A stretch of 21,866 nt of DNA from Candidatus Aenigmatarchaeota archaeon (lineage in GTDB: Archaea > Aenigmatarchaeota > Aenigmatarchaeia > PWEA01 > B50-G16). Below are positions 1,745 through 14,516 of this stretch, piece after piece (positions within the stretch are counted from its first letter, which is position 1; each line of letters starts with the position of its first letter). The notes beneath the pieces were generated by a model. It ran no database searches. It worked only from the letters and a program-made list of their open reading frames with translations, and had not been told where the DNA came from. The DNA lies in assembly GCA_003663345.1 (NCBI GenBank), contig QMZU01000001.1:1-21866 (forward strand), in the 5' to 3' direction. Both the position numbers and the translations under genes were made by a program.

Positions 1745-2166
1745 TTTTCTTCGAGGATTTTGACTTTTCGCTCTAATTCTGTTACTCTAACAGCTAACTT
1801 AAATTTTTCACTTTCTAATTTTTCGATTCTTTCTTCGTAGGGTCTGATGTGGTAGCTGAAGAATTGATACATAGCTGCTCCGAATGCCTTGCTCTCGTCC
1901 GTTATCAAGAATCCGCGCCAGTCTCTTTCAGCGCCCATAGTCCAGTAAATGCCGGATATTAACACGTTCCCGATGTATTGCATATTGAGGCCGTTGCTCG
2001 TTCCGATTCTCAGGCCGTTGATGAATATTTCGACTGCGTTGGCGTCAATGTGACTGTTGAAGTAGATGTCGTCCGGAGTTGAAATGCTCATGTTGATCGA
2101 AGTGTCGGCTTTTGCTGCGGGAATGCAAGCCAATCCAATCAGCAAAACCAAGGCAATTCTTTTCAT
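1732..2166 (-). CDS. Secreted protein with C-terminal coiled coil (144 aa)
   Basis: Residues 1-20 form a clear Sec signal peptide: a basic start (MKR), a hydrophobic core and a likely cleavage after AKA. The middle part is probably beta-rich. Residues about 108-141 are a heptad-like coiled coil (EERIEKLESEKFKLAVRV and onward) ending in a Cys. No transmembrane segment follows, so the product is probably released or held on the cell surface or virion through the coiled coil. A good TATA-like box sits about 20-30 nt upstream of the ATG, giving it its own promoter, and the metallophosphoesterase gene overlaps its end. I do not recognise the family. Superinfection exclusion, adhesion or a minor virion component are all possible. 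Confidence 0.75.
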   Translation of the reverse strand: MKRIALVLLIGLACIPAAKADTSINMSISTPDDIYFNSHIDANAVEIFINGLRIGTSNGLNMQYIGNVLISGIYWTMGAERDWRGFLITDESKAFGAAMYQFFSYHIRPYEERIEKLESEKFKLAVRVTELERKVKILEEKCGN

Positions 2167-2183
2167 ATTGATTATTTGCTTTC

Positions 2184-2200
2184 AAAATTTAAATACTTAG
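2184..2200 (-). promoter_or_regulatory. TATA-like promoter for the minus-strand secreted protein / phosphoesterase pair
   Basis: On the minus strand the sequence reads CTAAGTATTTAAATTTTG, about 20 nt upstream of the ATG at 2166. Spacing and composition fit an archaeal TATA box with a very short or absent leader. Confidence 0.55.
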
Positions 2201-2232
2201 CGGAAAGAAAAGAAAGAAAGAAAGGAAGGAAA
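2201..2232 (-). terminator. Pyrimidine-rich tract after the 259-aa secreted protein gene
   Basis: On the minus strand this is a run of TTTC/TTCC repeats directly after the stop codon at 2239 and directly before the next gene's TATA box. U-rich runs end archaeal transcripts, so it probably insulates the two genes. Confidence 0.4.
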
Positions 2233-2238
2233 TCTCGT

Positions 2239-3018
2239 TTAATTTCCTTCCAGGGCGAAGTTCTCGAATTCGAACTCGTCGTCGAAGTCTGCGTAGACTA
2301 TGTAATGCGGATTGCCCGTTATGTGAATTCCGGTGTCTGTTACTATTTCGTTCTCTGCCCACGCGTTCAGCTCGAATGTTCCCGATCCGTCTATGTATAC
2401 GTTCGCGTTTGTGTAGCAGCCGCATCCTTTACCGAACTTGTAACTTGAACCCCAGTGATCCTCGCACATATCGGTTATGCTCGTCGATCCCTCGGCCATC
2501 ACTTCCAAGGTCGCGCCTTCATCGTAGCTGTCGTCTATGTAGAAGTGGTGGTAAATATAGTGTTCTCCTGTTGCTTCTATCTGGTTGTCGTTCTGCCAGC
2601 CGTAGTTCGAGTTTCTAAGTTGCGCGTAATTGCTCCACGAGCGCCAAGCGAAATCTCCCGTGTCGCTCGTCGAGATATAAGTGTATGATTCTTGGCCGGC
2701 CTCGCCATACATCGGTTCGTAGTTGTCCGTCTTCCTGAAAACGTATTCTATGTATCCGCCGTTCTCGACGTGGCTTCTGACTTTAATCTCGTTCGTGTCG
2801 ACTCCGTAAGTGTAGGGATTGTCGTTGGAGTCGGTCGCGTATAATTCGCCGGAAATGTCGTTTCCGCCCGTCCAGAAGTGAGTTTCCGAATCGTCGTCGA
2901 AGTTGAAGTGAGTTTCGAAATCTCCGCTTCCCATCCAGTGCATCTCTATTTCAGTTGGAACTGCCGATGCAATCGGAATTACCAACAAGGCCATTAACAA
3001 GCTTATGAATCTTTTCAT
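2239..3018 (-). CDS. Secreted acidic, aromatic-rich protein of unknown function (259 aa)
   Basis: Residues 1-19 are a signal peptide (MKRFISLLMALLVIPIASA), with likely cleavage before VPTEIEMHW. The mature protein is rich in Asp, Glu, Tyr, Trp and Ser, has many short alternating strands and no transmembrane helix, which suggests an extracellular beta-sheet protein. Cysteines cluster in one region (DMCEDHWGSS ... GKGCGCYTN) and may form disulfides or bind metal. The start is supported by AAAAGGAGGG a few nt upstream of the ATG. It is the second of two neighbouring exported proteins, and their signal peptides resemble each other (both start MKR and end near A-x-A). The family is unknown to me; a surface-exclusion or lectin-like role is speculation. 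Confidence 0.72.
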   Translation of the reverse strand: MKRFISLLMALLVIPIASAVPTEIEMHWMGSGDFETHFNFDDDSETHFWTGGNDISGELYATDSNDNPYTYGVDTNEIKVRSHVENGGYIEYVFRKTDNYEPMYGEAGQESYTYISTSDTGDFAWRSWSNYAQLRNSNYGWQNDNQIEATGEHYIYHHFYIDDSYDEGATLEVMAEGSTSITDMCEDHWGSSYKFGKGCGCYTNANVYIDGSGTFELNAWAENEIVTDTGIHITGNPHYIVYADFDDEFEFENFALEGN

Positions 3019-3054
3019 AACAACCCTCCTTTTGTTTAAAGAGCATAAATTTCT

Positions 3055-3216
3055 TCAATCACGTTCCCAGGAAATTACCACGTCGTCGCGCAGGATTTCG
3101 GTCGTGATCAAAAGTTCAATCACGCTGAGCACCAAGTTCATGTGCTCGATTAACTTGTTCCTCCTGCATTTAATTTTAATCTCCAAATCTCCACATTTAA
3201 TCTTGAACATCCTCAT
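3055..3216 (-). CDS. Small protein of unknown function (53 aa)
   Basis: A short frame begins at ATG 3216 (MRMFKIKCGDLEIKIKC) and ends at TGA 3055. A second in-frame ATG at 3210 is the alternative start. It overlaps the last codons of the upstream 76-aa gene, and AAGGAG inside those codons supplies its ribosome-binding site. The N-terminal part looks like short amphipathic beta strands, and the remainder is helical with a hydrophobic patch (NLVLSVIELLITTEI). Overlap, Shine-Dalgarno and position in a chain of similarly coupled genes are the reasons to accept it. No function can be assigned. Confidence 0.5.
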   Translation of the reverse strand: MRMFKIKCGDLEIKIKCRRNKLIEHMNLVLSVIELLITTEILRDDVVISWERD

Positions 3217-4922: not shown

Positions 4923-6326
4923 ATGAGAACCTTCAACGATATTCTCGGTGATGATGACCTGTTAGAGTTTACCTTGCAGGCTCGGGTCGATTTTGGGTTT
5001 TTCGCCCGGAGAGTTCTCGGCCTCAATATTAAGTGGTTTCACGAGGAGTGGGTGAAGCTCTTCCTCGAAAATGAGAGAACCCTGATCTATGCTCCTCGCG
5101 GGTTCGGCAAGTCCACGATTCTCGGCGTTGCATTTCCTTTGTGGATGTCGTGCTTTAATAAGAATCTCGACTTTCTCATCGTCTCGAACGTTTATTCCCA
5201 AGCGACGGACATAATCACGAAAATCAGGAACTACATCGAATCCAACGAATATCTCTACCATCTCAAGCCGGAGTTCGCGTCAAAAGTTTGGAGAAGAACA
5301 GAGCTTCAAACCACCACCGGATGCAACATCGTCAGCAGACCGTATTCTCCCAACGTCAGGGGAAGACACTTCAACTACTGCATCCTCGACGAGGCCTCTC
5401 TCGATCGCTACGCCAGAGACAAGTCGATTTACTACTCCGCGATAGCTCCAACCGTGATTAGGAGGAGAGGACACATCGTGCTCATCGGAACTCCGAGATC
5501 CAAGCTCGACCTGATGGAAGAACTGAAGAAGCATCCGGATTACGTTGTCAAGACCTATCCCGCGATTCGCAACGGAAAGGCGCTCTGGCCCGAAGTTTTC
5601 GGAAGGAAATACCTGATGGAAAAGAAAAGAGAGCTCGGCGAAATCCCGTTCAACAAGGAATATCTTTTGAACTTGATTGCCGATCAGATTTACCTTTTCC
5701 CGCCTTCCTTGATCGAACCCGCTTTCCGCGACGACAAGATTATGACCATCTTCAAGGATGATGAGAAGCGCTATCAATACTTTATGGGCCTTGACTTCGC
5801 CCTTTCCGCTTCGCCAAGAGGAGATTACTCGGTTTTCGTGGTTCTCAAGAAAGACAGGGAAACCGGAATGATGGAACTCCAGTATCTCGCGAGATACAAG
5901 GGAATGGACTACAAGATTCAGGAGCAGAAAGTGAAAGAGCTTGCCAAGAATTTCAAGCCGGTCAAGATTCTTGCAGACGAATCCACTTTCGGCAGAATCG
6001 TTACCCAAGATTTGAAAGAAATGGGTTTGCCGGTTGAGGGATACTCGTTTCACGACGCTCAGGCGGAATACCTAATGACCCTGCGCTCCGCCTTCGAAAG
6101 AAACCAATTGATCATTCCGGCGAGCTACAAGGAGCCATACACGAAAAGAAAGGCCGACATTCTATTCAGAGAACTGACTTCAATGTCGCCGGTTGAGTCT
6201 CCGAGGACCGGGAGAGTCACCTACAAGAACGTGAGCGGACACGACGACACGGTCATAGCACTCGCATTAGCGGTCAAAGCCGCTACGGAGCAGAAGACTT
6301 TCCTTCCAATCGTGGGGATGGCCTGA
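4923..6326 (+). CDS. terL: Terminase large subunit
   Basis: This is the ATP-driven motor that packages viral DNA into proheads and cuts it with a C-terminal nuclease. The N-terminal ATPase has a Walker A motif, APRGFGKST (57-65), and a Walker B with catalytic acid, CILDEA (153-158). The RNase H-like nuclease domain shows the metal-binding acids in GLDFA (D291), ILADEST (D351) and GHDD (D441, D442). At 467 residues it is a normal length and looks intact. It is the first gene of the plus-strand operon and probably leaderless. Portal follows one gene later, the usual packaging order. No recognisable small subunit precedes it. Confidence 0.96.
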   Translation: MRTFNDILGDDDLLEFTLQARVDFGFFARRVLGLNIKWFHEEWVKLFLENERTLIYAPRGFGKSTILGVAFPLWMSCFNKNLDFLIVSNVYSQATDIITKIRNYIESNEYLYHLKPEFASKVWRRTELQTTTGCNIVSRPYSPNVRGRHFNYCILDEASLDRYARDKSIYYSAIAPTVIRRRGHIVLIGTPRSKLDLMEELKKHPDYVVKTYPAIRNGKALWPEVFGRKYLMEKKRELGEIPFNKEYLLNLIADQIYLFPPSLIEPAFRDDKIMTIFKDDEKRYQYFMGLDFALSASPRGDYSVFVVLKKDRETGMMELQYLARYKGMDYKIQEQKVKELAKNFKPVKILADESTFGRIVTQDLKEMGLPVEGYSFHDAQAEYLMTLRSAFERNQLIIPASYKEPYTKRKADILFRELTSMSPVESPRTGRVTYKNVSGHDDTVIALALAVKAATEQKTFLPIVGMA

Positions 6327-6650: not shown

Positions 6651-7841
6651 ATGATAGACGAAATATTCGGGATGAAAAGAACGGAAGCGAAGCTGAGCAA
6701 GGAAGAGTTGCCTCTCGGTCAGGTGGGAACCGAGTCGTTCCCGGAAACTTTGGAGCGGGTGGACAAGAAAGAGCTCGAGGCATGCTACATCCGCGATCCC
6801 ATCGTGTTCAACGGCATCAATCTTATTCTTAAAACTTTTCTCGGAACTGGATTCGAAATTCACGCGGTTAGCGGCAGAGTGAAGCAGTACATTGAGCAGC
6901 TCAGGCAGAATACCGACCTCGAGCAACTCATGCTCGAGATTATCCGCGACATTTGCATTTACGGCGATGCGTGGGTCGAGCTGCTTTACAGTGGGAACAG
7001 AATCACCGGCTTGAGAATCATCAACGCCAAGTCGATGGATTTCGAGAAAGATATCAACGGAAAGGTGAAGCTTGACAAATACGGGAGACCGATCGGATAC
7101 TTCCAGAAGGTCAGTTCCGCCTCGATGAACAGGAAGCTCGACATTGACGATCAGGGCAACCTCGGAATCCGAATTCCGCTGGAGAAGGTCGCGCACTTCA
7201 AGTTGTATTCGGTTAGCGGCTCTCTTTACGGAATCGGCTTGATCGAGCCTATTTACAACATAGTCAAGACGAAGCTCAACGTTGAGGAAGGTCACGGTCA
7301 AGCTTCTTACAGGCTCGGATATCCTTTGCCCGTCCTAACTTGCGGTGACGAGAACCATCAGCCCACCGCTCAGGATTTGAACCAGCTCGCCGAAGCTATG
7401 AAAGACCTGACCGCGAAGTCGATAATCACCCTGCCGTATTGGAACAAGCTCGAAATTTCCTATCCGAAGGGAATGGAAAAGATTTCTCAACCTCTTAATT
7501 ATTACGTCTCTCAAATCGTTTCCGGCCTTGGAGTCCCGGGTCCTTTGGTTCTGGGCTCCGGAGAGAGGACGAATCGTTCGACTCTCCAGATGCAAATCCG
7601 CGTTTTCAAGGATACGATCAGAATGATACAGGAAGTGATAGCGGATGCGTTCAGGACGGAAATCTTCAAGAGAATCGCGAAGATTGAGGGATGGAACGAG
7701 CTTCCCACGATCAAGTGGAAAGAGCTTAGTTTAGAAGACCTCCAGGCGAAAGCAGAAAGATTCAACATCTACGTCAAGTCAGGAATTCTCAAGCCGAGCG
7801 AGTTGGCGGAGAGCGTGAAAGAGCTGGAGGGCTTGAAATGA
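6651..7841 (+). CDS. Portal protein
   Basis: Portal proteins form the dodecameric ring at one capsid vertex through which DNA is packaged and to which the tail connector attaches. Features typical of the family are an N-terminal region around residue 50 beginning with DPIVFNGINLI, a mixed alpha/beta core containing YGDAWVELLY (104-113), and a C-terminal stem and crown region including SGERTNRSTLQMQIRVF (303-319) followed by a long helix. Its 396 residues fit the smaller HK97/SPP1-type portals. It lies one small gene after TerL, and its stop overlaps the next start in an ATGA junction, so the multi-enzyme protein is translated in direct coupling with it. Confidence 0.9.
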   Translation: MIDEIFGMKRTEAKLSKEELPLGQVGTESFPETLERVDKKELEACYIRDPIVFNGINLILKTFLGTGFEIHAVSGRVKQYIEQLRQNTDLEQLMLEIIRDICIYGDAWVELLYSGNRITGLRIINAKSMDFEKDINGKVKLDKYGRPIGYFQKVSSASMNRKLDIDDQGNLGIRIPLEKVAHFKLYSVSGSLYGIGLIEPIYNIVKTKLNVEEGHGQASYRLGYPLPVLTCGDENHQPTAQDLNQLAEAMKDLTAKSIITLPYWNKLEISYPKGMEKISQPLNYYVSQIVSGLGVPGPLVLGSGERTNRSTLQMQIRVFKDTIRMIQEVIADAFRTEIFKRIAKIEGWNELPTIKWKELSLEDLQAKAERFNIYVKSGILKPSELAESVKELEGLK

Positions 7842-10800
7842 ATACGGTTGATCTCGAGCTGTTCAATTATCTCGGTTCGAAAAAGCGCCAAGTGGATTCG
7901 ATAATGAGCGAAATCCCGAAGACAGCCAAAACTATTTTCGACCCGATGTGCGGTTCCAGCGCCGTGCTGTATGAGTGCAAGAAACGCGGTATGCACATAA
8001 TTGCGAACGACATTTCTCCGATGGCGTATTACTATTCCAAGGCGATTCTCGGCCAGACCAAATTCTCCAAAGAAGATGCGGAGAAATTGCTCTCCGCGAG
8101 ACCTGTCAAGGGGTATCTTTACCACGCGAAAACAATCGCGGGCAGGCCAAAGAGCAGGATCCTAAGGCAGGTAATAGACGGAATTTGCACTTACGCGCAT
8201 CAACTTCCTCCCGGCAAGAAGGAATTCGCTCTGGGAGCTATGGCAGATTGCCTTTCATCGCTTTTCGGGAGCTTCGGATTCTTCAGGAAAGCTCCAGAAG
8301 AGCAAGGACTTTACACGGTCTCGAAGTTCAAGAAGAAGCTCTTGAGAAGCATCATATCCTTGAATTCCAAAGTCATTCCCCAAGGAAGCGCGGCCGTGAC
8401 GAGAAAGGACGCGTTCACGATACCGATTCCGAAGGTGGACATCATTTACTTCGACCCGCCCTACGACATTTCAGGCACTTCAGAAGTTCCTTACGCCAAG
8501 CATTATGCCCTCCTCAATTCCATCCTGATGCAAAGGGAAGTGAACCTTCCGCCGTTCCCGAGGGAGAGAATCCCGGAATTGATTAAGCGGTTCGCGAATA
8601 AGTGCAAGATTCTGCTCGTTTCCTCTTCCAGCCAGCCGAACCTGAAATACAGGCAGATTCTGAAAGAGCATTTCGGAAACACCCGCCTCAAGAGAATCAC
8701 CTTCAAGTCTTCCGGTGGAATCCCGCAGGGAGCAGCGGTTCCAATGCGAATCCAAACCGACTATCTCTGGATCGCCGAGAACAAGTCCGAGAAGTTAGCC
8801 GAGAGGCAGGGATTGAGGCTTCCCGGTTCTCACGCCAAGTGGATCTGGACTGATCGGCAAACGGCAATTGTCCTCCCGGAAAGTTATAGACATCTCGCGG
8901 ATAAAAGCATGTATCTTGTCGACAGCAGCCATTGCTACGGCGTCATTCACTTGAAAGAGCCGTTCTCGATTACCAAAGACGAATTAATCGATCGCTTCAA
9001 CGAGCACTTGCTATCTCCTCTTGAATGCGAAGAATTGTTCGGGAATGCCAAGAAATTTTTATATTTCCCGTTTGTTTGGGTTGAGAAATTTCCGGAAAGA
9101 CGGCCGATTTCCCAAGAAGGGAAGGATTTAATAGCCGACAGAATCGAGTTCCTGGCAGAGGAATACGGGAAGCCGCAACACTCCGGAGAAGAGCAAGGTT
9201 CTCCGATTCACCTGAAGGAAGTCGTCGATAGTCTCAAGACCTTCAAAATCAAGAGGCCATACATCTGCTTGGTGGGAGGTCTCGCCACTTGGGGCAGAAC
9301 GAAGAACGACATCGACATCCTGATTAGAAAGAAGAAACCCAAGGATGAAAACGAGGACATTCCACTCAAGTTCAGGATTATCAGGCAGCTTCCCAAGCAC
9401 CTGTGGAAGAGAGTTCACTTCATTTACGACGATCACTTTCACGGCCCTTTCACCGACTTCGTCCCGCTTTACGATTTAGTCTTGGAGAAGCAGCCGTTCA
9501 AAATTGAGCGGATGTCTGAGAAAGGCGACGAGATTTCGTCCCTGATAAGCAACCTGCCCGAAATTTCAAAGGAAGAGCTCATAAAGCGTCATGAGAGAAT
9601 TCATGAAATTTGGAAGGAAGGAAAGGCGGATAAAGACGATGTAATAGATGCCCATGCCTTCATTTGGAGGGAAATGCGAAGAAGGGCAATCGAGCATCCG
9701 AAGAAGGATGACGGCCTCGACGAAGCATCCAGATTCCCGGTCATTGAATATCCCACGCCCGAATTGAAGGAACTCGAAGTCCCGAAGCATCTGAAACCCC
9801 GACAGGGATTCGAGGAGTTTGAATTCTCCGATCCCGCGACGCTGTGGAAAAACTGGTATCTAAAGCGGGCAAAAGGCGAGAAAGTTTACGTCGAGCCGAA
9901 ATGGGACGGCTTCACTTTCGGAGTCAAGAAGGACGGGAAAGAAGTTCAGCTAATCACGGAAGATAGAAGAAGGGATCGCTCGAGCATTCTCCCGCAGATA
10001 GTTGAGGACGTGAGAGCGCTTCCCGTCAAGCAGTGCGTCTTTTTCGGAGAAATGGTCTGGTTCAAGGACGGAAAGGCCAGAGAGCGCGAGGAAGCAATGG
10101 GCATCATAGCCGGCAAGGAACCTCTGGCGGATGAAGACATAAGATTTTTCGCATTCGACATCACGAACTTCGACGGCAAGGACATCTCGAATCTTCCCTA
10201 TTACGAGCGCGTGAAGTATCTTGACAGACTTCTCAGGGCGGATACAAGGCACATCATGAAGACTCCGAGAGTTCTCGTCTCCGACTACGATAATTTCGTG
10301 AAGGCCTTCAAGAAGTTCTCTGAGATTGAAGGATCCGAAGGTGTCATGGTTAAGAAGCAAGATTTCATCTACGAGAAAGATGGAAGAACTTCGAACATGG
10401 CGAAAATTAAGAAATCATACGACATTGAAGTTCAGGTCGCCAAGCGGGTGCCTAAAATTTCAAGCGCAACGGGCAAACCCATTCCCGGACAGTATCTTTA
10501 CGAAATCCAAACCAAAGACGATAAAGGAAGAATTGTCCCGATGGGCAGGACATTTTCCACAAGCATCAAGGCGAGTCCCGGAGATATTCTGACCGTCAGG
10601 ACAGCGAGAATAAGAGGATTCTGGGATCCCGAAGCGAAGAAAATGGTTAGAATTTCGCTGATGTGGCCGAAGGTTTTGGGCAAGGCGAAGCGCATGACTC
10701 CTTGGAAAGAGCTGAAGAAGATAATGTGGGTTCCGAAAGAAGAGGAACTTGCTGAAAAGCGTAGGTTTGTATATCAGGAGCATGCGAGAGGGAAATCCGT

Positions 10801-11527
10801 GCATGGGGACTTGCGATTCGAAATGAACGATCATCTCGAGGGATGGACGCTCGATGACATGGTCAAGGACGAGGTGAAAAAGCCGATTCTGACGCTGGAC
10901 GACTTGAGGAAAGAAGTGGCCGATCCGAACAACTGGAAAATTGATTGGGAAACAGGCGAAACCATCAAGCTTCCATCAGGAGAACCGATGAAGATTCTCG
11001 TTCAAAGCAAGGCAAGGCAGCCGAAAGTTTGGCTCACTCTGGAAGGCATCGTTCCTCCGGGAAAGCCCGGTGCCACCAAAAATTATCCGGGCGTCTTCAT
11101 CATCCGAGATAAAGGGACTTTTGAAGAAGGAACGAGGAAGCCGTATCTTTACGAGTATTTCCTTCACGGGAAGCACCTGAAAGGAAGATACATCATCAGG
11201 AAACTCGAAACAGGAGGACTGAAACCAAGAGGAGAAAGGGAGAAATTCAAAGTTCCGTTCGTTTGGTTTTTCTGGAAGCCGAAAGACCAAACACCTTACA
11301 TTTTGACGAAGAGAGCTCTCAAAACAGGCACGAAACCTCCACCGGGCAAGTCGTGGCTTCCCGAAGAGTGGGAGAAAAAATTGCCGAAGGAAATGAGATT
11401 CTGGGTCGGAGGATACAACAAGGAAGCCCATGAGAAAGCGGTTGAATTCGCAACCGAGTATAAGAAAGAAAAATCCCTCGAAGAGGATTTCCTTTATGAC
11501 AAGAAGTCTTTCCTGCTTAAAATTTGA
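7838..11527 (+). CDS. Multidomain DNA enzyme: adenine methyltransferase, nucleotidyltransferase, ATP-dependent DNA ligase, LigD phosphoesterase-like
   Basis: The 1229 residues hold several domains in order. (1) About 1-310: D12-class N6-adenine DNA methyltransferase, with SAM-binding FDPMCGSS (34-41), NDIS (57-60) and catalytic DPPY (206-209). (2) About 325-420: a segment of ASCH/PUA-like appearance, tentative. (3) About 465-560: pol-beta-type nucleotidyltransferase with GG (480-481) and DID (491-493). (4) About 680-955: ATP-dependent DNA ligase with adenylated Lys688 in EPKWDG, FFGEMV (735-740), FFAFDI (770-775), EGVMVKK (834-840) and MAKIKK (854-859), then an OB-like part. (5) About 975-1150: region resembling the LigD 3'-phosphoesterase (VYQEHARGKSVHGDLRFEM, then GKHLKGRYIIRK). 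The start overlaps the portal stop and has a good GGAGGG site. All key motifs look intact. Roles in end repair or genome circularisation are inference. Confidence 0.85.
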   Translation: MNTVDLELFNYLGSKKRQVDSIMSEIPKTAKTIFDPMCGSSAVLYECKKRGMHIIANDISPMAYYYSKAILGQTKFSKEDAEKLLSARPVKGYLYHAKTIAGRPKSRILRQVIDGICTYAHQLPPGKKEFALGAMADCLSSLFGSFGFFRKAPEEQGLYTVSKFKKKLLRSIISLNSKVIPQGSAAVTRKDAFTIPIPKVDIIYFDPPYDISGTSEVPYAKHYALLNSILMQREVNLPPFPRERIPELIKRFANKCKILLVSSSSQPNLKYRQILKEHFGNTRLKRITFKSSGGIPQGAAVPMRIQTDYLWIAENKSEKLAERQGLRLPGSHAKWIWTDRQTAIVLPESYRHLADKSMYLVDSSHCYGVIHLKEPFSITKDELIDRFNEHLLSPLECEELFGNAKKFLYFPFVWVEKFPERRPISQEGKDLIADRIEFLAEEYGKPQHSGEEQGSPIHLKEVVDSLKTFKIKRPYICLVGGLATWGRTKNDIDILIRKKKPKDENEDIPLKFRIIRQLPKHLWKRVHFIYDDHFHGPFTDFVPLYDLVLEKQPFKIERMSEKGDEISSLISNLPEISKEELIKRHERIHEIWKEGKADKDDVIDAHAFIWREMRRRAIEHPKKDDGLDEASRFPVIEYPTPELKELEVPKHLKPRQGFEEFEFSDPATLWKNWYLKRAKGEKVYVEPKWDGFTFGVKKDGKEVQLITEDRRRDRSSILPQIVEDVRALPVKQCVFFGEMVWFKDGKAREREEAMGIIAGKEPLADEDIRFFAFDITNFDGKDISNLPYYERVKYLDRLLRADTRHIMKTPRVLVSDYDNFVKAFKKFSEIEGSEGVMVKKQDFIYEKDGRTSNMAKIKKSYDIEVQVAKRVPKISSATGKPIPGQYLYEIQTKDDKGRIVPMGRTFSTSIKASPGDILTVRTARIRGFWDPEAKKMVRISLMWPKVLGKAKRMTPWKELKKIMWVPKEEELAEKRRFVYQEHARGKSVHGDLRFEMNDHLEGWTLDDMVKDEVKKPILTLDDLRKEVADPNNWKIDWETGETIKLPSGEPMKILVQSKARQPKVWLTLEGIVPPGKPGATKNYPGVFIIRDKGTFEEGTRKPYLYEYFLHGKHLKGRYIIRKLETGGLKPRGEREKFKVPFVWFFWKPKDQTPYILTKRALKTGTKPPPGKSWLPEEWEKKLPKEMRFWVGGYNKEAHEKAVEFATEYKKEKSLEEDFLYDKKSFLLKI

Positions 11528-11536
11528 GGTGATGAT

Positions 11537-11731
11537 ATGGAAGATTTATACCCAAAAGTTAAGGAGAAGAAAGAAATTGAAGTGATTGAGGAAGAACTGC
11601 CTTGTCCCGGAAGCAAGATTCGTTCGAGAGGAGAAGGAAGAGGACAAGGATTCGGAAAAGGAAAAGGACCCCTGGGAGTTCCGATCAAGCGGAAGAAGAA
11701 GATGAAATGGAATACTTGGGAGGAAATCTGA
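11537..11731 (+). CDS. Small Gly/Arg/Lys-rich protein (64 aa)
   Basis: An acidic N-terminal half (KEKKEIEVIEEELPCPGSK) is followed by a flexible Gly/Arg/Lys segment (GEGRGQGFGKGKGPLG) and a basic tail. GAGGTGATGAT directly before the ATG is a strong ribosome-binding site. It lies 9 nt after the multi-enzyme gene and 2 nt before the second phosphoesterase-like gene. The larger overlapping frame in this area belongs to the next gene and truly starts later. A linker or nucleic-acid-binding role is conceivable; the function is unknown. Confidence 0.65.
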   Translation: MEDLYPKVKEKKEIEVIEEELPCPGSKIRSRGEGRGQGFGKGKGPLGVPIKRKKKMKWNTWEEI

Positions 11732-11733
11732 AA

Positions 11734-12366
11734 ATGCCTGCACACAAATTTTACTTGAATCGGCACTGGTGGCGAGGGCAATTCGTTATTAGAGGCCAGC
11801 CTGTCGAGCATTTCGACCTCCGGATTGACGAGGGAAAATTGAAGAACCGCTATTGGGTGCTTGATAAAGACCCGACTTACGTTAAGAAAGGAATCGTGGC
11901 GGTTCAGAAAATCTGCGACGACAGGAGATGGCTCACATTTACCGGCAGGATTCCGCCCAATCCGAAGGCGCCGAAGTGGCTCAAGCCGGGCAATCCGAAC
12001 AAGCGAATCCCGGCGTTCGTTGAGAGAATCGATTCGGGAATCGTCAACTTCATAGAAGATTCTCCGAGGTTTATTTCCATGATTTTTAAGGGCGATCGAT
12101 TGCGGGGTTACTGGGTGATGAAAAAGCCGAATCCGGGAGAGTCCATCTGGATTTTCGAGAAGTCGGAGTTACCGAAAGCGAAGAAGCTTCTCGACATGCT
12201 AAACTCCGTTAGAAGAAGGGGCAGCCCGATTCAGATTACGCAACAGCAGTTGGACACGATTATCAAGATGTCGGAAGCGGGAGCAAGCAGGCCTCAAATT
12301 ATGAGAGCAACGAACTTGTCGAAGAGTTGCGTATATCACTACCAGCGTCTTCTCGGTTTCGTATAG
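11734..12366 (+). CDS. LigD 3'-phosphoesterase-like protein with C-terminal helix-turn-helix
   Basis: Residues about 15-50 (GQFVIRGQPVEHFDLRIDEG and on to KNRYWVLDKDP) and 113-132 (FISMIFKGDRLRGYWVMKKP) match the two signature regions of the LigD phosphoesterase fold, which trims 3'-phosphates or ribonucleotides at DNA ends. H26, D28 and R30 correspond to the family's HxDxR strand. Residues about 167-208 (QQLDTIIKMSEAGASRPQIM and onward) form a helix-turn-helix resembling resolvase/terminase DNA-binding ends. The frame is open further upstream to 11602, but GGAGGAAATCTGAAA before ATG 11734 fixes the start, and the upstream part overlaps the 64-aa gene. It is the second such domain in a row after the ligase fusion. 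Loss of activity is possible because some catalytic positions cannot be verified by eye. Confidence 0.72.
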   Translation: MPAHKFYLNRHWWRGQFVIRGQPVEHFDLRIDEGKLKNRYWVLDKDPTYVKKGIVAVQKICDDRRWLTFTGRIPPNPKAPKWLKPGNPNKRIPAFVERIDSGIVNFIEDSPRFISMIFKGDRLRGYWVMKKPNPGESIWIFEKSELPKAKKLLDMLNSVRRRGSPIQITQQQLDTIIKMSEAGASRPQIMRATNLSKSCVYHYQRLLGFV

Positions 12367-12399: not shown

Positions 12400-13500
12400 A
12401 TGAGATTTGACGATCTAATTATTCAGGAATTAGACGCCAAAGAGCAATACGATTTAAATAATCTGAAACTTCCGGTCGTTCTCAAGAACAAAATTTTGAT
12501 GTCTCCGGGAATGTGGAACGGATACTATTACGATGCGGATGCAATCCGGGAGGCATTTGAAAATACGGACTGGACATCGAAAGCCGTCAGGTCTCTTTTC
12601 ATGGATCACAAGGACAACGAGACATCCGATTGGGTAGGCTTCATTTCAAATCCCAGATTCGACGGAAAGAATATCAGAGCCGACCTTGAAATAGTTGACG
12701 AGAACATGGCTCGCAAGTTGCTTTTCGGAGCAAGATTCGGGATTTCGCCGAGATTGGTTGGTCAGGAAGACAACAAGGTAATGAAGCATTTCACCTTCGA
12801 GAACTTTTCGATTGTCGTGAATCCTGCGGTGAAAACCGCTTTCATCAATAATGCTCAAAACGAGGAGGGTTTAGATATGGAGGAAGCCAAAGATTTAGAA
12901 GAGCAAATAAGTCTCGAGGAAAGAATGGAGAGACTGGAGACAGCTCTCGCAGAGATTTCAGAGCTTCTGAAGAAAAAGAAGAAAGAGCCAGAAGAGGAAG
13001 AGCTCAAGAAGAAAAAGAAAGAGCCAGAGGAAGAAGAACTCAAGAAAAAGAAAAAGAAATATCCATACCCGTATCCATACGACAAACTCTTCGACATCCT
13101 CGAACTCGACGACTTCACCTTCGAGGAAGAAGGGAGCGAGATTCTTGAAGAGTTCGTGGAGTTGAAGAAAAAGGGCGGTAAAGTTGCAAGGATAGCAAGG
13201 AAGGCGAAAGAAATCAGGAAGAAAGGAGAATCTTGGAAATCAGCAATTAAGAGAGCAGCAAAGATGCTCGCGGAGGAGGAAGGAGAAACAGCGGAAGAAG
13301 AGAAGAAAGAGGAGCCTCAAGAGAAAGTCGAGGAAGCTTCGGAGAAGAAAGAAGTAGTTCAGGAGATGCAGGAAACAAACCCTGGCCTCGCCTTACCTGT
13401 CGACGGCGCGCAAGTAGCCGACGAACAAGTTAGCGAAGAAGACAGGCTGCTAAAAATGGACGAGGCAGTCTTTAAAATCCTAAAGGAGGGTGGATTATGA
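12400..13500 (+). CDS. Prohead protease fused to scaffold (XkdF/S78-like)
   Basis: Residues about 20-150 resemble phage prohead maturation proteases of the XkdF type. A catalytic-type His70 (FMDHKDN) and Ser116 (GARFGISPR) sit at the expected spacing, with an acidic strand (RADLEI, 93-98) between them. The remainder is highly charged and coiled-coil, as in scaffolds, with a 12-residue repeat (LKKKKKEPEEEE) from residue 190 and a curious YPYPYPY tract. The protease would cleave scaffold and capsid during maturation. The stop overlaps the capsid gene start (ATGA). A strong internal ribosome-binding site before Met160 probably also produces free scaffold, listed separately. Confidence 0.82.
   Translation: MRFDDLIIQELDAKEQYDLNNLKLPVVLKNKILMSPGMWNGYYYDADAIREAFENTDWTSKAVRSLFMDHKDNETSDWVGFISNPRFDGKNIRADLEIVDENMARKLLFGARFGISPRLVGQEDNKVMKHFTFENFSIVVNPAVKTAFINNAQNEEGLDMEEAKDLEEQISLEERMERLETALAEISELLKKKKKEPEEEELKKKKKEPEEEELKKKKKKYPYPYPYDKLFDILELDDFTFEEEGSEILEEFVELKKKGGKVARIARKAKEIRKKGESWKSAIKRAAKMLAEEEGETAEEEKKEEPQEKVEEASEKKEVVQEMQETNPGLALPVDGAQVADEQVSEEDRLLKMDEAVFKILKEGGL
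12877..13500 (+). CDS. Nested in-frame scaffold protein (207 aa)
   Basis: GAGGAGGG (12862-12869) lies 7 nt before an in-frame ATG at 12877, exactly where the protease domain ends. Translation from there would yield only the charged coiled-coil part (MEEAKDLEEQISLEERMERL and onward). Nested scaffolds made this way are established for phage protease-scaffold genes such as lambda C/Nu3. The product would act as an internal scaffold in excess over the protease fusion. Seen: the strong site and the domain boundary. Inferred: that it is used. Confidence 0.55.
   Translation: MEEAKDLEEQISLEERMERLETALAEISELLKKKKKEPEEEELKKKKKEPEEEELKKKKKKYPYPYPYDKLFDILELDDFTFEEEGSEILEEFVELKKKGGKVARIARKAKEIRKKGESWKSAIKRAAKMLAEEEGETAEEEKKEEPQEKVEEASEKKEVVQEMQETNPGLALPVDGAQVADEQVSEEDRLLKMDEAVFKILKEGGL
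12967..13059 (+). repeat. 36-bp tandem repeat in the scaffold gene
   Basis: Two complete copies (12967-13002, 13003-13038) and a partial third encode LKKKKKEPEEEE units. The DNA is almost pure purine on the plus strand, so the copy number may vary by slippage. Confidence 0.7.
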
Positions 13501-14516
13501 CAAAAACAATAACTCAGTTGCTCGCAGACACAACTTCCAGCCATAATACGGATCTCCAAGCCAAGCAATGGCTAAAAGCGATAATCGATACTGCTCAAAA
13601 GGAAATGCACTTCCTGCAGGTTGCTCAGCAATTCACACTGCAGCCCGGCTGGAAGGATCTTGCGGTTCCAATTAGAAGCGACTTCATCAGCTCATGGCAA
13701 TCCTCTGCCTCGGAAGGTGCCGCAGTCAACTACACGACAATGGACACCTTGTCCACAATTACCTTCACGCCTTCCGATGCGAACTACGGGATTGCAATAA
13801 GCAACAGAGCATTAAGAATCTCCAACATCAACCTGATAACGGCTGCCAGAGACGAGCTCACTTACAGATACAAAGACGTGATAGATCAGGCAATCCAAGC
13901 AGCTATTCTCGGCGCTACGGATGCCGACTCGGATACCAAGGGAGCTCAATCATTGGCAGGTGGTGACGCATCAGGGTATGGAGACACAACAACCGATGTT
14001 GAAGCCGGCGACATCATAACCACAGACATGGTGGCAAGGGCAAGAAGGATGCTAATGTCCACCAGCTGCTACTATTGGAGCGGCGGGTCTATGTCGAAAT
14101 CTTCGGCAAGCAAAGCTCCTTGGGTGCCAACTCCAGCCGAGCCGTTCGTGCTCATAATTGCACCCGAGCAGCAAGAAGCATTCCTCAAAGATCCGCAGTT
14201 CATAAACGCAGCTGAATACGGAGCAAGAGAACCCATCTTGAACGGTGAGATAGGCAGCTATCTCGGCGTGAAGATAGTCGTTTCCAACAACTTGCCAGCG
14301 AAATCTTCATCCGACAGCGGATGGAATACAAACGGTCACGTCTGCTTTATGGTCAAGGCGAAGAGATGTGCAGGAATTGCATGGGGACAGAAACCAAGAA
14401 TCCAAATAGTCGATTATCCATCAGAGCTTGAGAAAAGAATAATCCTCGAGATGGCCTACCAAGCAAAAGCACTTCATGCAGATGCAATCGTGAAGCTGAA
14501 AGTCGCAGATGCTTAA
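13497..14516 (+). CDS. Major capsid protein, HK97 fold (N4 gp56-like)
   Basis: This protein builds the icosahedral shell. At 339 residues, and without an obvious delta domain, it fits the capsid family typified by N4 gp56. Typical marks are a long N-terminal arm, the helix region IDQAIQAAILGA (129-140), and the P-domain/A-domain stretch EPILNGEIGSYLGVKIVVSNN (245-265). The C-terminal end continues with PSELEKRIILEMAYQAKALHADAIVKLK. It directly follows the protease/scaffold gene with a four-base overlap and a strong GGAGGG ribosome-binding site. A 7-bp hairpin with a T-rich loop follows 10 nt after the stop. The protein appears complete. Confidence 0.9.
   Translation: MTKTITQLLADTTSSHNTDLQAKQWLKAIIDTAQKEMHFLQVAQQFTLQPGWKDLAVPIRSDFISSWQSSASEGAAVNYTTMDTLSTITFTPSDANYGIAISNRALRISNINLITAARDELTYRYKDVIDQAIQAAILGATDADSDTKGAQSLAGGDASGYGDTTTDVEAGDIITTDMVARARRMLMSTSCYYWSGGSMSKSSASKAPWVPTPAEPFVLIIAPEQQEAFLKDPQFINAAEYGAREPILNGEIGSYLGVKIVVSNNLPAKSSSDSGWNTNGHVCFMVKAKRCAGIAWGQKPRIQIVDYPSELEKRIILEMAYQAKALHADAIVKLKVADA

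Follow-up and report, generated by a model that had tools for sequence, protein, structure and literature searches.

We analysed a window of 21,866 nucleotides, positions 1-21,866 of contig QMZU01000001.1 (assembly GCA_003663345.1), which is virus DNA that was binned with an archaeon. Its plus strand contains an unbroken open reading frame (ORF; 7838-11527 in the ORF list) that runs from an ATG start to a TGA stop and encodes a polyprotein of 1229 amino acids. The ORF overlaps the portal gene by four bases (ATGA at 7838-7841), and thus the single frame tied to the portal gene, which had been proposed in a first-pass annotation of this DNA, is intact. The polyprotein consists, in this order, of a D12 methylase, an ASCH domain, a nucleotidyltransferase (NT), an ATP-dependent DNA ligase with OB domain (LIG) and a LigD-like phosphoesterase (PE1). 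The domains and the neighbouring genes are listed in Table 1.

Table 1. Features of the window around the polyprotein gene.
Feature	Position	Strand	Residues and basis
Terminase large subunit	4923-6326	+	phrog_38, E 2e-55
Portal protein	6651-7841	+	PF06074, E 1.4e-14; PF04860, E 1.2e-12
D12-class N6-adenine DNA methyltransferase domain	7838-8767	+	Residues 1-310; Pfam, motifs, same domain in L012 and other relatives
ASCH (PUA-like) domain	8792-9172	+	Residues ~319-445
Minimal Pol-beta-superfamily-like nucleotidyltransferase	9203-9517	+	Residues 456-560; GG...DID 480-493
Helical region, no fold assignment	9518-9787	+	Residues 561-650
ATP-dependent DNA ligase, adenylation and OB domain	9818-10708	+	Residues 661-957; Lys688
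LigD-like 3'-phosphoesterase PE1	10766-11404	+	Residues 977-1189; metal triad His982, His989, Asp991
Small basic ORF (64 aa), possible gene	11537-11731	+	Between polyprotein and PE2 gene; ORF list
Second PE-like domain (PE2) with C-terminal helix-turn-helix (HTH)	11602-12366	+	PE2 ~11728-12201, HTH ~12235-12342; true start probably ATG 11734
Probable prohead (head maturation) protease, charged C-terminal region	12400-13500	+	phrog_3270, E 0.0021; profile links
Major capsid protein	13497-14516	+	PF25209, E 3.6e-10; phrog_1357, E 1.7e-17

The motifs on which the first-pass annotation was built were all found in place: DPPY at residue 206, GG...DID at residues 480-493, the ligase motifs KWDG with Lys688 and EGVMVKK at 834, and the LigD phosphoesterase-like signature HARGKSVHGDLR at residue 982. 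It had also suggested profile searches of each segment. In these, the Pfam models MethyltransfD12 (PF02086; residues 11-215, E 2.5e-15, 57.3 bits with a cut-off of 22) and DNA_ligase_A_M (residues 675-858, E 2.8e-23) scored above their cut-offs, and LigD_N stayed below its own (E 0.02, 15.5 bits with a cut-off of 31.1). Judged by the Pfam model, the S-adenosylmethionine motif (motif I, FDPMCGSS at 34) and DPPY, the N-terminal domain is a D12 N6-adenine methyltransferase. The ASCH domain behind it, for which the fold agrees with the assignment, had been overlooked, as had a second PE-like domain, encoded by the following gene, and a wide family with protease fusions. The NT carries the GG/GS...DxD motif of the Pol-beta superfamily, and G480, D491 and D493 are present in 45, 44 and 44 of 45 family members, respectively. 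The earlier assignment as a nucleotidyltransferase is thus supported by the motif; the third carboxylate is not constant, and the fold matches are weak (Foldseek hits to MNT antitoxins, 7bxo at E 0.63, and a TdT profile match at E ~1). For folding, one alignment (A6) contained the window protein and 45 of 52 candidate rows and a second one (A7) the window protein and 27 rows from 39 candidate segments. Among the PDB matches listed for the folded segments, ligases fill the lists; a match in BFVD (A0A516LT18, 642 columns) could not be named.

An assembly or gene-calling artefact fusing separate genes, which the first-pass annotation had itself raised as an objection, can be set aside almost entirely. 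A contig from another metagenome (L012) has the order methylase-ASCH-NT-LIG-PE1, with a metallo-lactamase inserted before PE1, followed by PE2, protease and capsid genes, and its protein shares 48% identity with the window protein in the best BLASTP stretch. Since this independent contig has the identical order, the polyprotein is not a product of assembly, and no point in favour of an artefact was found. The source contig itself is present in IMG/VR and in a metagenome-assembled genome (MAG), both possibly going back to one assembly.

The phosphoesterase was recognised with a profile of 12 family PE domains, which matches two archaeal PEs of solved structure, 3p4h (E 1e-4) and 3p43 (E 2.4e-4), with the active-site residues aligned. 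According to the available text of PMC8656161, the PE of LigD has the metal triad His42, His48 and Asp50, and Arg52, His84 and Tyr88 are arranged around a phosphate mimic. Across 97 proteins of the family, the triad positions hold His (97), His (95) and Asp (97), and the position of Arg52 holds Arg in 94. The first His is followed by an Arg-Gly pair, each residue of which is likewise found in 94, and Lys1058 and Glu1106 are invariant (97 of 97). At the positions of His84 and Tyr88, mapped by alignment to 3p43, the window protein has Gln1061 and Trp1065. From these residues, PE1 is a divergent PE subfamily in which the metal site is retained and the phosphate side rebuilt. Its activity may differ from that of LigD and, since both positions are replaced, a LigD-type activity should not be assumed; the altered active site makes its chemistry directly testable. 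Intein-like LAGLIDADG insertions lie inside PE1 of the proteins P0017 (at the His box) and P0069 (in the second motif region); inteins commonly mark functionally important sites.

The PE1 profile also matches the next gene (E 1.9e-4), which was one of the seeds of the PE2 profile, and a comparison of the two profiles with hhalign gave a probability of 97.3%. At its C-terminus this gene encodes a resolvase-type HTH (Pfam HTH_7, E 5.8e-5, 23.6 bits with a cut-off of 23.8). All four catalytic positions are retained in the window copy of PE2. Most relatives carry PE2 C-terminal to PE1 in one chain. In L012, the closest relative, the gene for PE2 (9983-11290) has an additional match to the ligase profile at residues 243-428.

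The family was collected from scans that gave 6, 33 and 6 loci, from phage records, which contributed ANMV-1, and from three protein searches, which gave the 97 proteins. Thirteen of 50 loci were dropped as duplicates or near-duplicates or, in the case of L002, L003 and L050 on contig C33 of the window's own MAG, as fragmentary. The remaining 37 non-redundant loci include the window and two copies on one contig (L048 and L049); several cores are truncated where their contig stops. Most loci were retrieved with PE1 as the query, and its presence is therefore given by construction; the other modules were identified with their own profiles, LIG in 32 loci, NT in 30, PE2 in 32 and the window-type methylase in eight. 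The prevailing orders in the 97 proteins were NT-PE1-PE2-LIG-protease (41), NT-LIG-PE1-PE2 (16) and NT-LIG-PE1-PE2-protease (10), with others found no more than five times each. The core modules recur in altered order and as split genes. This persistence of the set is the strongest evidence that the modules work together, because it holds while order and gene borders vary.

The first-pass annotation knew of no described system with this exact order. Indeed, no description of a ligase-PE polyprotein family was found in the literature searched, which was chiefly open-access; the order is, however, not a one-off but part of a large family with two main orders. Named genome contigs of relatives stem from Thermoplasmata, Thermoprotei, Dehalococcoidia, Planctomycetota and Myxococcales MAGs, where binning is no proof of the hosts. 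Among 50,697 phage records, PE1 (window or L048 as query) matched ANMV-1 only, and the whole window protein had six matches, five of them confined to the ligase. Plasmid records gave no match to PE1 of L048. With the PE1 profile, five of 95 genomes were matched, namely the window's own genome and four others with weak hits (E 2.4e-5 to 3.4e-4; frames of 126-163 amino acids).

The link to the capsid operon seen by the first-pass annotation is conserved across the family, with the portal gene upstream and a prohead protease fused or adjacent. A portal gene is located upstream in 26 of the 37 loci, or in 23 of the 27 for which more than 2.9 kb of upstream sequence is present. Its distance ranges from overlapping up to 4.3 kb and is within 1 kb in 16 loci; the four-base overlap was also found in L005, L012, L013, L018 and L040. 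The protease is fused at the C-terminus in 18 loci and lies at most 300 bases away in a further 13, together 31 of 37. Since the portal and protease calls came from iterated profiles seeded from window genes, they were checked independently with Pfam and PHROGs. Pfam named nine of ten tested portal matches (from the 26) as portal. PHROGs returned head maturation protease at E <0.001 for seven of ten tested neighbouring proteases (from the 13); the window's own reached only E 0.0021, those of L012 and L006 obtained no name, that of L025 was named weakly, and L036 and L045 were outside the tested set.

The window protease has no Pfam match at E 0.1. Its single-sequence profile matches the fused C-terminal domain of L017 (E 1.1e-4), and the iterated profile reaches fused domains which Pfam names Peptidase_S78 (L023) or Peptidase_S78_2. 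An hhalign comparison of S78_2-type domains with a two-sequence window protease profile gave no link, whereas the single-sequence and iterated profiles did. XkdF-type peptidases have been proposed to be head-processing peptidases (PMC7824862, available text). By eye, the window protease gene contains a repetitive stretch rich in Lys and Glu, and this stretch might belong to a scaffold.

From the first few downstream genes of 21 loci, ten capsid candidates were picked by hand. Nine of them match head or virion proteins, which belong to four different PHROGs (1623, 1650, 212 and 371), and for this reason the kit does not seem tied to one capsid family but to accompany the head operons of several.

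Polyvalent proteins are long chains of unrelated enzymes encoded beside the virion genes of portal-terminase viruses, for which packaging and cleavage by a protease within the chain have been proposed; they are scarce in archaea, nearly all proteins of more than 1,000 amino acids being bacterial (PMC5512222; Iyer et al. 2017, available text). The window protein resembles them in that several disparate enzymatic domains are joined in one polypeptide and encoded near late virion genes, and adenine methylases and 2H domains are common to both groups. It differs in its core, a DNA ligase with a LigD-like PE; in the main text of PMC5512222, as far as available, the word 'ligase' occurs three times, in at least one passage with reference to RNA ligases. 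The protease is also different, a serine prohead type in the window relatives versus a zincin in the polyvalent proteins of the same source, where it is a common theme and not a requirement. A built-in peptidase was not found by Pfam in the window protein; the probable prohead protease is encoded by a nearby gene instead.

The fusion of an enzyme with a head-maturation protease has a precedent, since some phages have been reported to fuse Nudix domains to MuF, to the portal or to a capsid-processing serine peptidase, and these domains are taken to be packaged and injected (PMC9503650, available text). The relatives of the window protein share this principle; the Nudix fusions described there are nucleotide-hydrolysing enzymes, and the available text mentions no ligase-PE kit. 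Our best reading is that the polyvalent concept and the enzyme-protease fusion are known, and that the window family is a new branch of the phage polyvalent proteins, with DNA-end repair at its centre. To our knowledge, the repair enzymes of African swine fever virus, an unrelated virus, are separate proteins and do not include a PE or a methylase.

One member of the family has been deposited before. The protein AJP62006.1 of ANMV-1 (L004), deposited as 'ATP-dependent DNA ligase', is an 866-amino-acid NT-LIG-PE1-PE2 protein encoded directly after the portal gene. Unlike the window protein, it has no methylase in a Pfam scan and no matches to the methylase and ASCH profiles. The word 'ligase' does not occur in the main text of the ANMV-1 paper (PMC4372165) as far as available. 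Another ANMV-1 gene (1913-3193) carries the deposited name 'MutT-like phage hydrolase' but gives a portal protein match (PF06381, E 3.2e-22).

The window protein shares several features with LigD, the POL-LIG-PE enzyme of non-homologous end joining in bacteria and archaea: ligase and PE are joined with a nucleotide-adding module, the ligase domain is ATP-dependent with a catalytic lysine (Lys688), and the PE triad His42, His48, Asp50 corresponds to His982, His989, Asp991. Unlike in LigD, the PE mostly has Gln or Glu and Trp at the positions of His84 and Tyr88, a second, degenerate PE is present and the genes are part of a viral head operon. Neither Pfam nor NCBIfam gave an archaeo-eukaryotic primase (AEP) polymerase domain for the window protein, which has the minimal NT instead. 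By its sequence the window protein is not a LigD, because no AEP polymerase was found and the PE does not have the His84/Tyr88 pair.

Taken together, we consider it somewhat more probable than its opposite (about 0.55) that the window protein belongs to the polyvalent proteins, is made from the head operon of a tailed virus and serves DNA-end repair, probably in the procapsid, acting at packaging and entry. The polyprotein would be made alongside portal, protease and capsid, and the core kit would consist of the NT, the ATP-dependent ligase and the two PE-like domains, distributed in the window over two adjacent genes. The kit would most likely mend the genome of the virus itself where it is broken or nicked. 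PE1 could clean blocked 3' ends by means of its bound metal, the NT may add or exchange a terminal nucleotide and the ligase would seal the ends; PE2-HTH might assist DNA binding and the methylase might mark the DNA against restriction. Since a prohead protease is fused or adjacent in 31 of the 37 loci, the polyprotein most likely enters the procapsid or stays near it; the protease could cut it into units, which would act on viral DNA during packaging and on entry. What the sequences show is the frame, its domains, the conserved metal-binding and ligase residues, the family and the gene context; activity, substrate and processing are what we infer, together with packaging, delivery and timing, which are drawn from the gene context.

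Several findings weigh against this reading. In ANMV-1 the protease is 21 kb away, and no protease was found near the core in five further loci, of which L022 and L049 are cut by a contig end. A ligase was not found in the core of five of the 37 loci (L045 is cut at the 5' end, L023 open at the 3' end). In PE1, the position of His84 holds Gln in 59, Glu in 23 and His in six of the 97 proteins, and that of Tyr88 holds Trp in 95, Phe in two and Tyr in none. The catalytic positions of PE2 are often lost (His in 14, His in 18, Asp in 19 and Arg in 13 of 44), and therefore PE2 is probably a binding domain in most family members. The third acid of the NT is not constant, with Asp546 in 25 of 45. Some accessory modules in relatives appear to be RNA-related (RaSEA-like, RNase Z-like and 2H).

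The position in the head operon could also reflect timing only. The protein would then be a late enzyme outside the virion, repairing nicks, gaps and bad ends in the cytoplasm for the terminase. Packaging motors require clean DNA, and T4 supplies its own ligase; the window polyprotein is, moreover, coupled to the portal gene and has no fused protease. This alternative is serious, although we regard it as rather unlikely because a protease in the same chain, found in 70 of the 97 family proteins, indicates a physical place in the procapsid, a share that is possibly inflated since two of the three protein searches began from protease-fused proteins, although only the PE1 part was scored.

The altered residues would fit yet another possibility, that this is chiefly a structural head protein with captured enzymes, in which PE and NT are now non-catalytic binding domains. 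PE1 without the His84/Tyr88 pair, the degenerate PE2 and the NT without a constant third acid all agree with it, as do departures in the ligase, with Asn aligned at the motif I Asp in nine and motif V Lys858 missing in 14 of 45 members. The metal positions of PE1 (97, 95 and 97 of 97) and the ligase residues Lys688 (42 of 45), Glu834 (43) and Lys839 (44) are, however, kept over wide divergence and would hardly be needed for binding alone, which makes a mainly structural role very improbable.

It might also be possible that the kit repairs RNA, mending or processing tRNA or mRNA cut by host defences, and the RNA-related modules named above could be read in this way. Over its adenylation and OB domains the ligase finds its best matches among DNA ligases, and the RNA_ligase model of Pfam stays under its cut-off on the window protein; D12 methylase and dimer glycosylase are, by their family descriptions, enzymes acting on DNA. 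RNA repair is therefore improbable.

The accessory modules in relatives comprise D12 methylases (by Pfam in 24 of the 59 proteins of one protein search), metallo-beta-lactamase, pyrimidine-dimer glycosylase, DUF6884, RaSEA-like radical SAM, 2H, an extra ligase and a C5 methylase. In L017 (2531-7690) and L043 (3230-7954), the dimer glycosylase, the RaSEA-like radical SAM domain (E ~1e-37, under its cut-off) and DUF6884 are fused to the ligase-PE core and the protease; these fused modules might modify viral DNA or tRNA. Several accessory modules thus appear to favour DNA repair or marking, and some RNA. As a whole, the first-pass annotation was correct in what it observed in the sequence, and its interpretation, a machine for end processing and DNA marking, is supported in part: dimer glycosylase and further methylases agree with repair and marking, but LigD-type 3' healing is uncertain with a PE1 that does not have the His84/Tyr88 pair.

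A further-reaching proposal can be made only tentatively, and we think it rather less likely than not to hold in full. A self-contained, LigD-like repair and marking polyprotein might be built into the procapsid by many tailed viruses, archaeal and apparently also bacterial ones. From it the maturation protease would free enzymes as the head matures, and these would accompany the genome and repair and methylate it at entry; the minimal NT would replace the LigD polymerase, resulting in a virus-borne end-joining and excision repair. If the end-repair reading is true, a widespread group of viruses delivers, or at least assembles around, its own DNA break-repair kit. It would explain how virion DNA with damage or nicks is rescued when the host does not have a repair pathway that suits it, and the polyvalent-protein idea, with few reported cases in archaea, would then cover a large family whose core is a DNA ligase.

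The MAG that holds the window contig is 74% complete and has the archaeal markers L32e and TBP; binning does not prove that the host of the virus is an archaeon. No match to the archaeal small-subunit rRNA model and none to Ku was found in this 74% complete MAG. A search with LigD_N was also negative, a weak result since the same model overlooks the window's own PE. ATP-dependent ligase matches in the MAG are two only, the window gene and a family-type gene on contig C33. The latter contig encodes a second related polyprotein (L050, 3-3542) with ASCH and ligase domains and, by eye, a metallo-beta-lactamase-like start and an NT-like motif; its frame ends without a PE, and tail-like genes seem to be next (by eye).

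Two related long copies, L048 and L049, with 91% identity in the PE1 region, are located near opposite ends of a 105.8-kb contig of a Myxococcales MAG. On the minus strand of the window, positions 800-1744 encode a winged HTH joined to a calcineurin-like phosphoesterase, which is similar to exonucleases of DNA repair (phrog_7339, E 1.7e-13).

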